Positions 25,137-35,052 of a stretch of 64,000 nt of DNA are shown here, piece by piece. The stretch is from Chryseobacterium sp. (GTDB lineage Bacteria > Bacteroidota > Bacteroidia > Flavobacteriales > Weeksellaceae). Under the pieces are notes generated by a model. That model did not search any database, was not told the origin of the DNA, and saw only the letters and a program-made list of their open reading frames with translations. The stretch is from the NCBI RefSeq assembly GCF_019236175.1, contig NZ_JAFAJM010000006.1, forward strand, positions 1-64,000, read 5' to 3'. Every line of letters begins with the position of its first letter. Position 1 is the stretch's first letter. The position numbers and the translations under genes are program-made.

Positions 25137-28100
25137 ATGCATCGTTTTTTTATATTTTTATATTATCTTATTTCCAGAAACAAAATCCTTTCTGTATTTA
25201 TTGCATTAGGGATCGCTGTAATGTGTATCTTTTTTGCTTCAAAAATCAACTTTGAAGAGGATATCAATCAGATCATTCCCAAAAATGAAAAATCTGATCT
25301 TACAGCAAAAGTTCTCAAACAGTTAAACTTCTCAGACAAGATTATTGTTATCATACAGAACAAATCCGGTGATGACAGCTTTCAGCTTTCTGAAACAGCG
25401 GACTCCTTCCTGCAAAAGATTGAGCCTTTGAAAAAATACATCGGTTCTGTACAGGGAAAGGTAAATGATAATGAAATTTCCGAAACGTTTGATTTTGTCA
25501 ATCAAAACCTGCCTTTATTCCTGAATGAAAATGATTATAAAGAAATTGAAAGAAAACTTCAGAAGGACAGCATTGCCCAACAGGTAGAAAATAATTATAT
25601 TTCTCTGGTCTCACCAACGAGTCTTGTCACTAAAAATTTCATCAAAAAAGATCCTCTTGGATTAACTTTTCTGGGAATAAAAAAACTGAATGCCCTCAAC
25701 ATCAGTAAAGACTTCAAACTTGAAGACAGCTATATTGTTACCAAAGACGGAAAAAATCTATTATTATTTATAGACCCTAAAAATAAAAGTAATGATACCA
25801 AATCTAATGAGGCTTTTATTGACGGATTAAATTTAATAAAAGAGAACATCAACAAAGAGTTCAGAGGCAAAACAGAAATCAGTTATTTCGGTTCCCCTGT
25901 AATTGCTGTGGCCAATGCCAAACAGATCAAGAAAGATATTCAGAATACGGTAGTCATCTCCATGACCGTTCTGTTAATCTTACTGATTTATTATTTCAGG
26001 AATTTCTTCACACCTGTGATCGTTTTTCTTCCTACTGTATTTTCCGTTTTACTGGCTTTACTGATTCTATATTTCATTAAAGATAAAATCTCAGCAATCT
26101 CATTAAGTGTAGGAGCCATTCTTATCGGAATTACTATTGATTATGCCCTGCATATTCTTACTCATTATAAGCACAATAACAATATTGAAGAACTTTATAA
26201 AGAGATTACCCAACCAATTGTTTTAAGCAGTGCTACTACTGCGGTTTCTTTTCTCTGCCTGGTTTTTGTACGCTCTGAAGCATTAAAAGATCTGGGGCTT
26301 TTTGCAGCCATTACCGTGATTTTATCTTCTGTCACAGCATTGATTATTGTTCCGCAGCTCTATAAACCTAAGGAAACAAGTGAAAAACACAGCACAAATT
26401 TCATTGATAGGATCGGCTCTTATCCCTACGAAAAAAACAAACCCCTGATTATTGGCTGTTCTGTAATTATTCTGGCCTGTTTATTTGGATTCAGACATGT
26501 AAAATTCAACGAAGACATCGGGGACCTGAACTACATTCCGAAAGAATTAAAACTCAGCGAAGCTAAGCTACAAAAGCTTTCAGATATCACATCCAAGTCT
26601 ATCTATACTATTTCTTACGGAAATTCTGAAGAAGAAGCTCTAACCAGAAATTCACAACTGACAGATTTTCTTGAAAAAGAAAAGAAAGAAGGGAAAATAT
26701 TAAGTTATAATTCCATCGGAAGTATTGTGCTTTCTGAAAAAGATCAGCAAAAGAAAATTAATGAATGGAAGGCTTTTTGGGATACCCATAAAAAACAACA
26801 GACCATTTCCGAGCTTATCACCAATGGAAACAAGTTCGGATTCAACAGCGCAGCTTTTGATAATTTCAATGATGTTCTGAATAAAAATTATTCCGCGTTA
26901 CCGCTGAAAGACTACAAAAAAGTAAAAGCTCTGCAGATTTCTGAGTTTCTGAGTAATGAAAACGGTTTTTACACAGTATCCAATGTCGTGAAGGTGGATG
27001 AAACAAAAAGAGATTCCTTTATCAAAGACATTGAAAAGAAACATGATGCAATTGCTATCGACCGTCAGCAAATGAATGAAAACTTTCTGGGATTACTGAA
27101 AAGAGATTTTAATACACTGATTAATTATTCTCTGCTGGCTATCATTTTAACAATTATTGTCTTCTTCAGAAACTTTGAACTGACTGTACTGACTATGTTT
27201 CCCATAGTATTAACGGGAGTTGTAACAGCAGGGATTTTATATTTCCTGGGGCTAGAACTCAACATCTTCAGTACGGTAGTCTGTACATTAGTCTTCGGGG
27301 TAGGTGATGACTTCAGTATTTTCCTGACTCAGGCAATGCAAAAAGAACACACTTCCGGTAAAAACGAACTTCCTACCTATAGAATTTCAATTATCCTGGC
27401 TGTTTTCACCACCATTCTTTCCATCGGCTCTTTGATCTTTGCCAGACATCCTGCTCTCCATTCTTTAGCATTGGTGGCTCTGATCGGAATGTTCTCGGTA
27501 ATCATCATTACCTCAACATTATACCCGTTCTGGTTTAGGCTACTGATTACAAACAGAGCAAAAAAAGGACTCTCCCCGATTACCTTCAGGTTGCTTGCCA
27601 ATTCACTTCTTTCATTTTTATATTACGGAGTGGGAGGCTTTTTATTTTCAGCGTTCGGAAGCTTCTTTGTTAAAAATTCCAGGGGTAGAACACTCAATAT
27701 TATTAAACTGATTCTTGCAAAATTTTTAACCTCGGTATTGTATTCAAATCCTTTCGTTAAGAAAAGGATTATCATAAATCCGGAAGAAGACTTCAGCAAA
27801 CCTGCCGTTATCATTGCCAATCATACGTCATTTCTGGATACATTAGCTATTGCAATGACGACTCATAAAATCATCTATCTGGTCAACGACTGGGTATATC
27901 AATCCCCTATTTTCGGGAAACTGGTAAGAGCACTGGGATTCTTTCCTGTATCTCAGGGTATTGAAAACGGGATGGATAAACTGAAAGAAAAAGTGGCACA
28001 AGGCTACTCACTTGTTGTTTTTCCTGAAGCAGAACGATCTTACACCAATGACATTAAAAGGTTTCACAAGGGAGCATTCTATCTTGCAGAACAATTTAAT

Positions 28101-28790
28101 CTGGATATTCTTCCTATTTATATTCACGGAAACTCTGAGGTATTACCCAAAGGAGATTTTATTATTTACGATGGAAGCATTACGGTAAAAATAGGCGACA
28201 GAATTAGTAAAGACGATATCAGCTTCGGAAAAAATTATTCTGAAAGAACAAAAAAAATCAATGCCTATTTCAGAGATGAGTTTGCCCGACTACGTGAAAC
28301 GCTTGAAGATGAAAATTATTTTAAAAAGAAACTGTTTTTAAGTTATTTATACAAAAACAGTGATGTGGTAAAAGAAGTAAAAGAAGATTTCAACACCCAT
28401 AAATCTGTCTACTTCGAACTGAATAAACATATTCCCAAAGATGCTAACATTCTTCATATTGCCAATGATTTCGGGCAGAAAGATGCTCTTCTGACTCTTT
28501 ATCAGGCAGGCAGAAGAATATTCAGCATTATTAAAGATGACGAGAAAAGAGAAACCGCAGCACACAGTTATCTGGTTAAAAAAAGAAAACTGCATTATAT
28601 TAAAGACTTTACGGAAGTGAATAAAGACATTGATGTACTTATTATTTCAGATCCGGACTTCAACATGAATGACATCCGGATTTCACCTGACACCATCATT
28701 TTTGTTAATACTCAAAATACTCCGTTGTTAAGCCAAAACCATTCATTAAAATTCAGTTCTGAATCATTAAAAGTATTTAAAGTCTCATAA
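25137..28790 (+). CDS. MMPL transporter / acyltransferase / methyltransferase-like fusion
   Basis: The 1217-residue protein joins three parts. Residues 1-820 form an RND/MMPL exporter with two sets of membrane helices (about 10-420 and 665-810). Residues 870-1040 form a lysophospholipid acyltransferase domain with NHTSFLD (near 895) and PEAERS (near 961). Residues about 1090-1215 look like a Rossmann methyltransferase, but the glycine-rich SAM loop is degraded (HIANDFGQKDA). The same three-part layout is annotated as trifunctional in other flexirubin clusters. The likely role is export and membrane anchoring of the pigment. It heads the locus behind a strong promoter. Confidence 0.9.
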   Translation: MHRFFIFLYYLISRNKILSVFIALGIAVMCIFFASKINFEEDINQIIPKNEKSDLTAKVLKQLNFSDKIIVIIQNKSGDDSFQLSETADSFLQKIEPLKKYIGSVQGKVNDNEISETFDFVNQNLPLFLNENDYKEIERKLQKDSIAQQVENNYISLVSPTSLVTKNFIKKDPLGLTFLGIKKLNALNISKDFKLEDSYIVTKDGKNLLLFIDPKNKSNDTKSNEAFIDGLNLIKENINKEFRGKTEISYFGSPVIAVANAKQIKKDIQNTVVISMTVLLILLIYYFRNFFTPVIVFLPTVFSVLLALLILYFIKDKISAISLSVGAILIGITIDYALHILTHYKHNNNIEELYKEITQPIVLSSATTAVSFLCLVFVRSEALKDLGLFAAITVILSSVTALIIVPQLYKPKETSEKHSTNFIDRIGSYPYEKNKPLIIGCSVIILACLFGFRHVKFNEDIGDLNYIPKELKLSEAKLQKLSDITSKSIYTISYGNSEEEALTRNSQLTDFLEKEKKEGKILSYNSIGSIVLSEKDQQKKINEWKAFWDTHKKQQTISELITNGNKFGFNSAAFDNFNDVLNKNYSALPLKDYKKVKALQISEFLSNENGFYTVSNVVKVDETKRDSFIKDIEKKHDAIAIDRQQMNENFLGLLKRDFNTLINYSLLAIILTIIVFFRNFELTVLTMFPIVLTGVVTAGILYFLGLELNIFSTVVCTLVFGVGDDFSIFLTQAMQKEHTSGKNELPTYRISIILAVFTTILSIGSLIFARHPALHSLALVALIGMFSVIIITSTLYPFWFRLLITNRAKKGLSPITFRLLANSLLSFLYYGVGGFLFSAFGSFFVKNSRGRTLNIIKLILAKFLTSVLYSNPFVKKRIIINPEEDFSKPAVIIANHTSFLDTLAIAMTTHKIIYLVNDWVYQSPIFGKLVRALGFFPVSQGIENGMDKLKEKVAQGYSLVVFPEAERSYTNDIKRFHKGAFYLAEQFNLDILPIYIHGNSEVLPKGDFIIYDGSITVKIGDRISKDDISFGKNYSERTKKINAYFRDEFARLRETLEDENYFKKKLFLSYLYKNSDVVKEVKEDFNTHKSVYFELNKHIPKDANILHIANDFGQKDALLTLYQAGRRIFSIIKDDEKRETAAHSYLVKKRKLHYIKDFTEVNKDIDVLIISDPDFNMNDIRISPDTIIFVNTQNTPLLSQNHSLKFSSESLKVFKVS

Positions 28791-31324: not shown

Positions 31325-31768
31325 ATGGAAATCAGGGAAGAACATATTATCAATATACACAATTTTTTACCTCATCGTGATCCCATGCTGATGGCAGATT
31401 ACATTCTGGAATTAACGGAAGAAAAAGTTGTGACTTCCTTTGAAATAAAAGAAGATAATATCTTTGTTCACCGGAATGAATTTGTGGAAGCCGGCCTGAT
31501 TGAAAATCTGGCACAAACCTGTTCTTCTATTCTGGGGCAAAGTTTCTTTGAAAATCCGGAAGCAGATACCAGAGTGATCGGTTTTATTACCCATATCAAA
31601 AAAATCGAGATCTTTGCTCTTCCCAACGTAGGTGATACCATTATCTCAAAAGCATCCCTTGTTTCACAGTTTGAAAATATCTGTCATATCTTCTGTGAGA
31701 CGTTCAATAACGATGAACTACTGATCAGGGCAGATATAAACCTGTTTATTCAGGAGGTAAAATCTTAA
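31325..31768 (+). CDS. Second hotdog dehydratase-like protein
   Basis: This is a 147-residue paralogue of the protein encoded just upstream, sharing FEIKEDNxFV and the GLIENLAQT segment. It starts with FLPHRDPMLMADYI like FabZ. The Glu in GLIENLAQ is kept; a His in FVHRNE sits near the place of the catalytic loop, but HFPG is absent. The two proteins could form a heteromeric dehydratase. The gene is followed by a strong terminator, so it ends the darA-darB transcription unit. Confidence 0.75.
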   Translation: MEIREEHIINIHNFLPHRDPMLMADYILELTEEKVVTSFEIKEDNIFVHRNEFVEAGLIENLAQTCSSILGQSFFENPEADTRVIGFITHIKKIEIFALPNVGDTIISKASLVSQFENICHIFCETFNNDELLIRADINLFIQEVKS

Positions 31769-31796
31769 GTATAAATTACATTCAATTTAAAATAAT

Positions 31797-31826
31797 AAAA
31801 GCTGTACATTCTGTGCAGCTTTTTTC
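31797..31826 (+). terminator. Intrinsic terminator after the hotdog pair
   Basis: The 8-bp stem GCTGTACA/TGTGCAGC (31801-31808 with 31812-31819, one G-U pair) is extended by A-T pairs and followed by six T. It lies about 30 bases past the stop at 31768. Confidence 0.8.
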
Positions 31827-32016
31827 TTCTTATGATACTTATTTTGAGTTTAAAAATAAGCAAATGAATCCCGGAATTGATATTATTTTTTATTGAAAAA
31901 TCCGTAAAACATACAGGACAGCCACTGAACACAAATAAAATAAACATCTAAAAAACAACAACTTAACCACTTAAAAAAGCACTGTTAATTCTGATAAAAA
32001 ATATATCAATCCGATG

Positions 32017-32052
32017 CATTTCACGTGAAACATTATACAAATCCGTGAAACA
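32017..32052. promoter_or_regulatory. parS-like ParB-binding site plus half-site
   Basis: The 16-mer at 32017-32032 matches the bacterial parS consensus TGTTTCACGTGAAACA at 14 of 16 positions, including the whole TTTCACGTGAAAC core; only the first two bases differ. A right half-site (CGTGAAACA) recurs at 32044-32052, exactly 20 bases downstream. parS sites bind ParB to organise and segregate the chromosome origin region. Confidence 0.75.
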
Positions 32053-32086
32053 TTCATGATCAGAGGTAAGCTCATGTTATTAATAA

Positions 32087-32116
32087 AAAAAGTGAGGCGT
32101 TTCCGCCTCACTTTTT
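32087..32116. terminator. Bidirectional terminator between convergent genes
   Basis: A perfect 13-bp stem (32087-32099 with 32104-32116) with loop TTTC and A/T runs on both sides. It lies 23 bases past the stop of the M16 peptidase gene. Confidence 0.85.
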
Positions 32117-32139
32117 ACATATTATGGACTAAAAAGAGA

Positions 32140-35052
32140 TTAGTATCCGAAGATCTCTTCAAGAGACACCTCCTGGAACTCACCCATTTTATGAATAGAT
32201 TCCATATTCAGATTTTCTTTCTTTCCGATAATTGCCGTATTGTATTGTACAGGTTTTACTTCAGTATTGTAAAATCCTGTAAGCTGAGGCAATGTCAGAC
32301 CCTGAATTTCCGCGTAGGTATCCTTTCTGATATCATAATCAATTCCTAGCTTTTTCAGCGCCAGCTGGCTAAAGAAAATATTCGTTCTGTTGATTCTGTT
32401 CGAAGCAATTTGTTTTAATGCGGAACCTTTCGCATTTTCAAACTGTGCCGGAATTTGTGGCAATTCTTCCATCAAATCATTCATCGCAGTTACCGCCTGC
32501 GGAAGTTTATTAGACTGCGTTCCTATATAATTGGTAATATAATTGGCAAGTCCTTTTTCCGAAGCATTAGCATAAGAGACATAAGCAGTATAAGCCAGAG
32601 ATTTACTTTCTCTGATTTCCTGAAAAACAATAGAGGAAAGCCCCCTTCCGAAGTATTCATTGAAAACGTTGGCTTTTCCGAAATTACTAAGATTCACCGT
32701 ACTTCCTTTTGCTACTTTAGACATCTCCATCTGTACCATATCATAATTCGTAAAGTATACTTTTCCTATGGTAGCAGGCTCTGTATATACTTTAGCTTTT
32801 GCAGGCTGAAGGCTTGTATTAACGATATAAGGTTTCACTGCTTTTTCCAATCCTGCCTGATCTTGTCCGTAAAGAAGGATCTGGTAAGGATATTGGGTTA
32901 ATGTTTTTGCCTTTTTCATCAGTTCGGCAACATCAATCTTTTCAAGACGGTCTTTAGAAACAATATCCGTCATTCTTGAATCTTTACCATACTTAGCATA
33001 ATTAGTAAGAGCGGCCATGATTTTTGTTTTATCCTTTTTAGCAACAGCTCTTGCCTCTAAAATAGTCTTCACCGTTTGATCATAAACCGCTTTATCGGCT
33101 TTTACATTTGTCATCCAGTGGTTCATAAGCTCTACCCCTTTTTTCATATTGCTTTCAAGACCTGTTAAAGTAATAACCATCTGATCATTGGTAGTTCTGA
33201 TGTTGGTGGTGATCCCAAGTTTATAGAATTCTTCCTTCAACTGTTCCGGTGTGTATTTATCTGTCCCAAGATATCCGAAAAGAGTTCCTGCAATAGAAAG
33301 CTCTTTATCATTGTCTGTTCCAAAAGGGAAAATATAGCTTACCTGTGCAACTTCGTTATATTTATTTTTTACAAAGCTTACCGTCTTATCTTTGATCTGA
33401 GAAGTCTGGATTGCTGTTTTATAATCTACAAACTCAGGTTTGATCTCTGCAACTTTTGTATTTAGAATATCTTTCAGGAAAGGAGACTGAGCCTCTCTGT
33501 TTAATTTAATCGGTGTAATCCCGGGGTTTTCTACACGGACAAGCTTATCATTCACCCCTTTCTCTTTATAAACGACTACATAATTATCTTTAAAAAAATC
33601 GTTGGCAAATTTCACAACATCTGTTTTTGTGATCTTCTCATACTGATTAATATCATCAAGCTCCTGTTCCCAAGTTCTTCCCTTGATATAAGCACCATAA
33701 AGCTCTGTAGCCAGCCCGTCTGCCGTTTCCCAGCCTTTCATACGCTGAACCTTCTTATCATTAACGATCGCCTTAAGCATCCAGTCCGGAAATTGTCCTT
33801 TTTTCACAAGATCCAGCTGATCCATCAATAGTTTTTGGGCTTCATCAAAACTCTGCCCTTCTTTAGGAGTAACTACCAGAGCAAACATTCCGTACATTTT
33901 AAACGGAGATTCATAAGCGCCCGCTCCAAGGGTCTTTTGTTTCTGATTGATATTAAGGTCAATTAATCCCGCATCTCCCCTGTTGCTTAAAATTTCAGAA
34001 ACGATGTCTGCCAGTCTTGCTTCCTGACTTCCGTAAGAATCTGTTCTCCAGGCCATGGTCATTCTTGGTGTAGAAGGACTTTTTACAGTTCTGGAGACAA
34101 TCTTAGTCATCGGTTCTTCTGTCACCATCTTCTTCATAGGAAGCTCTTTGTATTTGAAAGAACCGAAATATTGATCAACTAATTTTATAGTTTTGTCAAA
34201 ATCAAGATCACCTACCATTACAACGGCCATATTATTAGGAACGTAATAGGTATCAAAATATTTATGGATTGCAACCATTGAAGGGCTTTTTAAGTGCTCC
34301 GAAGTTCCGATAGTTGTTTGCTGTCCGTTCGGGTGCTTAGGGAAAAGAGCTTCCATTAATGCATAATTAACCAGGCGTCCGTCATTATCCTGCGCTCTGT
34401 TATATTCTTCATATACTGCTTCAAGCTCTGTATGGAAAAGGCGTAATACCAGTTCTGAAAAACGCTCTTTCTCTATCTTAAGCCATTTTTCGAGCTCATT
34501 GGATGGAATATTATTTTTATAAACTGTTTCATCCAGCCAGGTATGAGCATTCGTTCCCGTAGCTCCTAATGAAGAAATTACTTTATCATATTCATTAGCA
34601 ATCGCATATTTCGAAGCTTCCTGAGAAACCTCATCGATTTTTTTATAAAGATCTTTCTTTTTAGCAGGGTCTTTTTCAGCCTTGTGTTGTTCATAAAGAT
34701 CAGAGATCTGTTGCAGCAAAGCCTTTTCCTTTACCCAATCCTGGGTTCCCAAATGCGAGGTTCCTTTAAAAATCATATGTTCCAGATAGTGGGCCAGCCC
34801 TGTATTATCACTTGGGTCATTATTTGACCCTGTCCTTACAGGAATATAGGTCTGGATTCTCGGAGCATCCTCATTTTTTGCAAGGTATACTTTCAGTCCG
34901 TTTTTCAGCGTATACACTCTTACACCGGCCTGATCATTCTTTACCGTTTCATAGTTGTATCCCTGAGCATCCGTCAGCTTTTGGGTATCGAATTTCTGGG
35001 CCATTGCACTCAGCATACAGAAAAGCGAAACAGAAATAAAAAACTTCTTCAT
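32140..35052 (-). CDS. M16-family zinc metallopeptidase, two-domain
   Basis: This secreted protease has a signal peptide (MKKFFISVSLFCMLSAMAQ) and the inverted zinc motif HYLEH at residues 88-92, with a downstream ELEAVYEEYNR segment supplying the third ligand. The 970 residues hold two M16 halves; the second half (from about 530) lacks an HxxEH and is presumably structural. It probably degrades peptides in the periplasm. It points against the flexirubin genes on both sides and shows no link to pigment synthesis. Confidence 0.92.
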   Translation of the reverse strand: MKKFFISVSLFCMLSAMAQKFDTQKLTDAQGYNYETVKNDQAGVRVYTLKNGLKVYLAKNEDAPRIQTYIPVRTGSNNDPSDNTGLAHYLEHMIFKGTSHLGTQDWVKEKALLQQISDLYEQHKAEKDPAKKKDLYKKIDEVSQEASKYAIANEYDKVISSLGATGTNAHTWLDETVYKNNIPSNELEKWLKIEKERFSELVLRLFHTELEAVYEEYNRAQDNDGRLVNYALMEALFPKHPNGQQTTIGTSEHLKSPSMVAIHKYFDTYYVPNNMAVVMVGDLDFDKTIKLVDQYFGSFKYKELPMKKMVTEEPMTKIVSRTVKSPSTPRMTMAWRTDSYGSQEARLADIVSEILSNRGDAGLIDLNINQKQKTLGAGAYESPFKMYGMFALVVTPKEGQSFDEAQKLLMDQLDLVKKGQFPDWMLKAIVNDKKVQRMKGWETADGLATELYGAYIKGRTWEQELDDINQYEKITKTDVVKFANDFFKDNYVVVYKEKGVNDKLVRVENPGITPIKLNREAQSPFLKDILNTKVAEIKPEFVDYKTAIQTSQIKDKTVSFVKNKYNEVAQVSYIFPFGTDNDKELSIAGTLFGYLGTDKYTPEQLKEEFYKLGITTNIRTTNDQMVITLTGLESNMKKGVELMNHWMTNVKADKAVYDQTVKTILEARAVAKKDKTKIMAALTNYAKYGKDSRMTDIVSKDRLEKIDVAELMKKAKTLTQYPYQILLYGQDQAGLEKAVKPYIVNTSLQPAKAKVYTEPATIGKVYFTNYDMVQMEMSKVAKGSTVNLSNFGKANVFNEYFGRGLSSIVFQEIRESKSLAYTAYVSYANASEKGLANYITNYIGTQSNKLPQAVTAMNDLMEELPQIPAQFENAKGSALKQIASNRINRTNIFFSQLALKKLGIDYDIRKDTYAEIQGLTLPQLTGFYNTEVKPVQYNTAIIGKKENLNMESIHKMGEFQEVSLEEIFGY

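Follow-up and report, generated by a model that had tools for sequence, protein, structure and literature searches.

Extra parS sites are commonly explained in one of two ways: as places where Smc-ScpAB is loaded, or as weak additional sites. In Pseudomonas aeruginosa, the remaining six parS sites cannot replace the four origin-proximal ones, as reported in PMC4368675. ParB of this organism binds parS7-9, in which one arm is exact and the other carries two changes, better than the sites changed in both arms; these one-arm-changed sites rank below the perfect and the one-mismatch sites, and keeping the CACGTG core intact is said to be important for the binding (PMC4368675). Furthermore, P. aeruginosa ParB also binds lone heptamers, GTTTCAC and GTTCCAC being its two preferred ones (PMC10419367). 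In Caulobacter, the flanking DNA with which ParB associates extends over about 10 kb, and the zone around the native parS cluster in which a second cluster is tolerated measures no more than about 500 kb (PMC5815017). According to PMC10197239, the origin is not always found together with dnaA, and its two Bacteroidetes have no known condensin. The Noc binding site (NBS) is marked by A at position 1 and C at position 6 (PMC7383237). Among the matches listed in the open-access literature, no title concerns parS in Chryseobacterium or Flavobacterium.

The sequence under study, CATTTCACGTGAAACA, occupies positions 32017-32032 of the window, i.e. the whole stretch of 64,000 nucleotides that was analysed, which is a part of contig C9 of a Chryseobacterium genome of 4.75 Mb in 24 contigs. 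This 16-bp word, to which no strand is assigned, matches parS (TGTTTCACGTGAAACA) at 14 of 16 positions, and the 12-bp palindrome TTTCACGTGAAA is unbroken inside it; the right arm is exact and the left arm is off at its two outermost bases. Up to two mismatches to parS is the criterion used in PMC10197239. A half-site, GTGAAAC, lies on the plus strand at 32045-32051, in register and exactly 20 bp after the GTGAAAC of the right arm (32025-32031). The original prediction of a near-consensus parS with a full palindromic core, followed by a half-site exactly 20 bases downstream, is thus borne out by the sequence in both its parts.

Two convergent genes end on either side of the element and leave a gap of 371 bp around it. 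They are a 147-aa ORF upstream (31325-31768, plus strand) and an M16 peptidase gene downstream (32140-35052, minus strand), the latter assigned from the ORF list and Pfam. A Pfam search of the 147-aa ORF returned no match; we take it to be FabZ-like, and 'flexirubin' and 'pigment', as labels for the gene region around the site, are likewise assumed or come from the original prediction. Elsewhere in the window, a single ORF at 25137-28790 fuses MMPL and acyltransferase domains, as judged by Pfam. The hairpin scan displays one terminator-like hairpin at 31797-31823 (plus strand), after the upstream plus-strand genes, and another at 32087-32116 (minus strand), after the M16 peptidase gene, two being found against 0.2 expected in shuffles. 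No ORF of at least 80 aa lies wholly inside the gap, and a 97-aa ORF that begins at 32056 runs into the peptidase gene of the opposite strand. The predicted position between two terminators, in a gap with no gene, agrees with these observations.

Within the window alone the match is weak, because 30 of 100 shuffles also give at least one match at ≤3 mismatches, where one is observed and 0.34 are expected. The own genome contains two exact parS sites on contig C19 (G000:C19:292239 and 294169; L079 8001 and 9931); the window site, with two mismatches, is the next best, and 19 others have three. At ≤3 mismatches the own genome yields 22 sites against 22 in the reversed control, and at ≤2 mismatches three sites against none, so that the genome-wide search ranks the window site third and leaves the rest at control level. 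In the genus (98 genomes, own included), 391 sites at ≤2 mismatches were recorded against 89 in the control, and the exact pair near mnmG would make up about half of the 391. The exact core TTTCACGTGAAA is present in one to four copies per genome in the 21 single-contig genomes of the genus, and beyond the parS pair it is nearly absent from them. The proposal that parS sites are spread in this lineage is not supported by such low copy numbers. Judged from the aligned sequences, it is the conservation at the locus, rather than the match itself, that lifts the site far beyond chance.

Conservation was followed in locus stretches read in 68 of the 98 genus genomes (30 loci from the DNA search, 37 fetched and one more), the other 30 genomes falling outside the coverage. 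Of the rows that a DNA search with 31700-32260 listed, 26 have an alignment whose first base is 32018. The 15-mer ATTTCACGTGAAACA (32018-32032) is exact in 32 of the 68 stretches and carries one change in two; in the remaining 34 the best match has four to six mismatches and none has two or three, which makes the presence of the site all-or-none. The 34 site-less stretches are an upper bound, as some may not span the whole gap; in G068, for example, the flanks are ~9 kb apart and the stretch read covers 1.2 kb. A tree built by a quick method from one short gene of the locus, that of the 147-aa protein, calls for two changes of the site; it comprises 51 of the 58 loci with a tblastn match, namely those with ≥90 aligned residues. 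One clade of 32 rows carries the site throughout, and a pair (G034/G095) carries it inside a group otherwise without it. The site is present in a part of the genus and was not found in its other members.

Where the site is present, every column from 32017 to 32034 (consensus TATTTCACGTGAAACATT, no strand assigned) is conserved in 33 or 34 of the 34 sequences; among the 320 columns, the second-longest run at this level spans three. The mean pairwise identity of the 34 sequences is 0.99 in the 15-mer. On its upstream side the value is 0.39; the spacer gives 0.54, the half-site 0.74, the sequence beyond the half-site 0.48, the terminator 0.73 and the third codon positions of the M16 gene 0.60. 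The core is CACGTG in 33 of 34 copies and CATGTG in one. C at 32017 is unique to the window's copy among the 34, and A at 32018, where exact parS sites have G, is common to all of them; the consensus of the 34 orthologs accordingly matches TGTTTCACGTGAAACA at 15 of 16 positions. The half-site takes the form GTGAAAC in 19 sequences and GTGGAAC in 10, being an exact heptamer of the GTTTCAC or GTTCCAC type in 29 of 34; one further sequence has a single mismatch and four lack the half-site. Its offset in the 30 carrying sequences is 20 bp in 27, 19 bp in two and 18 bp in one. The two forms differ by the same T/C wobble as the P. aeruginosa half-parS heptamers GTTTCAC/GTTCCAC, and the arm change in G036 (GTGGAACA) is that wobble as well. 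An exact scan for the composite in a collection of 84,980 species, from which close kin of the window's genome may be left out, gave 28 records, all titled Chryseobacterium. Preservation of the word at the same locus in 34 stretches (≤1 of 15 letters changed), together with the 18-column run, upholds the earlier view of a selected chromosomal site in an intergenic gap; both of the checks proposed with that view, on how rare the word is and on its conservation in related genomes, turn out in its favour.

The exact pair flanks mnmG/gidA, as read in the own genome only, where dnaA is on C11 and parAB on C1, away from the pair on C19. A pair of cores separated by ~1.93 kb is seen in 20 of 21 single-contig genomes; G087 has one change in its second copy. 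The third-codon GC skew of the relative G020, a complete genome, is negative in 8/8 samples between 1600 and 3300 kb and positive in 10/10 from 3450 kb round to 850 kb, two samples, at 1100 and 1350 kb, being mixed. The origin of G020 was placed between 3300 and 3450 kb because the skew changes sign there; its pair lies at 3385 kb, and its dnaA is found where the record begins. Across the pair of the own genome, the sign of the skew flips, as judged from ~8-9 kb per side, and the same sampling in G002 was noisy, with no clear origin. dnaA is ~1.2-2.0 Mb from the pair in 21/21 single-contig genomes, and it was rejected as an origin mark on account of this distance and of the skew switch of G020 falling at the pair. 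The skew of G020, together with its local course in the own genome, suggests that oriC of the genus is near mnmG and not near dnaA.

In G042, ~100 bp lies between the positions to which the right ends of C9 and C19 map; from this adjacency we infer that the window site is ~344 kb, or ~7% of the chromosome, from the exact pair, and it is thus not clustered beside oriC. The site is present at its locus in 13 of the 21 single-contig genomes, among them G063, which is 75% complete. In 11 of the 13, 328-414 kb separates the site from the pair; the separation is roughly 0.87 Mb in G054 (length rounded) and 2.1 Mb in G002. The common distance in the 11 may merely reflect shared gene order, and it is not claimed as selected because G002 and G054 break the spacing. 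The original prediction had also offered, as one of two readings, that the locus lies within the ParB-loaded domain, here that of the origin cluster; this is not supported by a separation of ~344 kb from exact parS, as against the flank of ~10 kb described for Caulobacter ParB in PMC5815017. At 344 kb the site is outside a centred zone of the size tolerated in Caulobacter, so either the Caulobacter rule differs here or a weaker site is tolerated.

Other near-parS words occur in the genus. The word GTTTCATGTGAAAC is present in 24 of 98 genomes, against four in the reversed control, as two orthologous sets and one single. One set comprises 12 genomes, none with the window site (L148, L152, L154, L155, L156, L159, L161, L163, L164, L165, L170, L171); it lies in a region that looks coding by eye, and in the two genomes with a listed position the pair is 6.6-6.8 kb away. 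The other set, in which this second near-parS reads TGTTTCATGTGAAACA, is orthologous in 11 genomes, all with the window site (L149, L150, L151, L153, L157, L158, L160, L162, L166, L167, L168), and is ~102-165 kb from the pair in its five single-contig genomes. Judging by these two sets, the complement of additional near-parS sites seems to change from clade to clade. L145 (G013:C1:289504) has a different outlying site, CGTTTCACGTGAAACT, just 3' of a terminator-like hairpin (by eye) and ~151 kb from the pair. Among 30 exact parS sites, one per relative, and the two own sites, none has a half-site at 18-20 bp; a half-site at 57-64 bp from exact parS was recorded in 7 of the 30 loci (L023, L028, L040, L041, L045, L046, L047).

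The own genome encodes a chromosomal ParA-ParB pair: its single HTH_ParB match is in a full-length ParB with ParB_N, HTH_ParB and ParB_C on C1, where a ParA-like ORF, named by eye, adjoins the ParB gene. We take this ParB to be parS-type, by eye, at the residues reading positions 1 and 6 (R173 and G201 in Caulobacter numbering). A second, weak HTH_ParB match is present in 4 of 21 single-contig genomes (G025, G042, G054 and G086), all of which have the window site; it is a 338-aa frame in the first three and a 128-aa frame in G086, and another protein that reads the site is possible in these four. ScpA (PF02616) was found in 0 of 60 genus genomes, own included, in a search whose control gives a match in 9 of 14 known genomes. 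The own genome gave eight SMC matches, none over the cut-off, and the three that were inspected look like an ABC transporter, SbcC and RecF by eye. Loading of Smc-ScpAB at the site is doubtful because ScpA was not found in the 60 genomes.

Taken together, the window site is very probably a genuine, selected, outlying third parS, which stands apart from the origin cluster and is not drawn from a large scattered set, and is very probably bound by ParB. Its role as a lower-affinity nucleation point for chromosomal ParB is likely, on the evidence of sequence comparison. The observations behind it are the rarity of the word, its strict conservation at one locus in a part of the genus, the parAB pair, the exact parS pair flanking mnmG and the change of sign of the GC skew at this parS pair, seen in G020 and, over the nearby sequence, in the own genome. 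Against a third parS stand the left arm, which is always off consensus, the absence of the half-site from 4 of 34 sequences, the half of the 68 stretches that are site-less, and the spacing, which is not fixed.

As a third parS, the site would present its core and right arm for good binding by ParB and its left arm for less good binding, and the half-site 20 bp on would help a second ParB to dock or to be retained. CTP-ParB clamps would load at the site and slide into the transcription-quiet convergent gap. A small second partition complex would then form ~340 kb from oriC, be drawn into the origin cluster or follow it via ParA, and help to order one chromosome arm near the origin. A bolder extension, to which we attach a rather low probability, is a bipartite and deliberately weakened ParB site, made of a parS with one arm always off consensus and the phased half-site, placed on one arm of the chromosome some hundreds of kb from oriC, in cells without Smc-ScpAB. 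ParB itself would there bridge the outlying complex to that of the origin and so fold or orient the region around the origin in place of that condensin.

Among the alternatives, a purely local purpose of bound ParB, i.e. the silencing or insulation of read-through where the upstream genes and the M16 peptidase gene meet, survives best, and it is itself unlikely. The location between convergent units would suit it, and excess ParB represses promoters adjoining P. aeruginosa parS3 and parS4 (PMC5521831); however, two terminator-like hairpins already part the units, and when 25 half-parS were mutated in P. aeruginosa only two adjacent genes changed (PMC10419367). An operator for another DNA-binding protein, which would read the CACGTG-centred palindrome and control the neighbour genes, is still less probable. 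It would accommodate the invariant A of the left arm where parS has G, as well as the further, weak HTH_ParB match of G025, G042, G054 and G086, all carriers of the site. Promoter-like matches in 31700-32300 are at chance (three against 2.8 expected, in a scan that models sigma-70 sites of other bacteria), although one of them, on the minus strand at 32029-32000 (9/12), overlaps the site. The operator was rejected on this ground and because both flanking genes end here, the site being past their 3' ends and between the two terminators; the near-restriction of the 12-bp core to the parS pair in the 21 single-contig genomes and the agreement of the half-site wobble with ParB also speak against it.

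That the site is an old parS in decay, inherited but without function, is strongly disfavoured. The occurrence of the site in one main clade and one genome pair, with two changes on the quick tree of the neighbour gene, and the loss of one more outer base from the window's copy could be read in favour of such a relic, but the 18-column run at 33-34 of 34 contrasts with 39-54% identity in nearby gap columns, and the all-or-none presence shows no intermediate decay. A chance match, for which the frequency of matches in the window shuffles might be cited, is refuted by the same word being kept at the same locus in 34 genomes.

Comparison with known systems places the probable third parS as follows. 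NBS resembles the window site in A at position 1, which is shared in one arm only; at position 6 of its arms the window site has A and not C. The own genome has one HTH_ParB protein and no second one was found in it that could be a Noc paralogue of ParB, a weak second match being confined to the 4 of 21 relatives. An NBS/Noc site was rejected owing to the wrong core and to this single protein.

The parS sites of Limosilactobacillus reuteri at -180, -17 and +206 kb (PMC10197239) are similar in that single sites lie hundreds of kb from the origin in both. L. reuteri is among the species named in PMC10197239 as encoding Smc-ScpAB, whereas ScpA was not found in the Chryseobacterium genus. An outlying parS that is near-invariant between species where ScpA was not found allows its role without that condensin to be asked directly.

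The parS5-parS10 sites of P. aeruginosa and the window site are all two-mismatch parS, and those sites are outside the origin-closest cluster of four there; with parS7-9 the window site further shares one exact arm and two changes in the other (PMC4368675). P. aeruginosa has six such two-mismatch sites (PMC4368675), whereas here one locus is kept across species. The half-site belongs to the same two heptamers, GTTTCAC/GTTCCAC, as the half-parS of P. aeruginosa; those number a few hundred or more and are scattered (PMC10419367), whereas here there is one, phased 20 bp from a near-full parS. As compared to oriC parS (TGTTTCACGTGAAACA), the window site has A for G in the left arm (34/34), lies ~344 kb off the exact pair and carries a half-site at 18-20 bp; it is alike to that site and to ParABS in the core palindrome, the right arm, the following TT, the genomic rarity and the presence of parAB.
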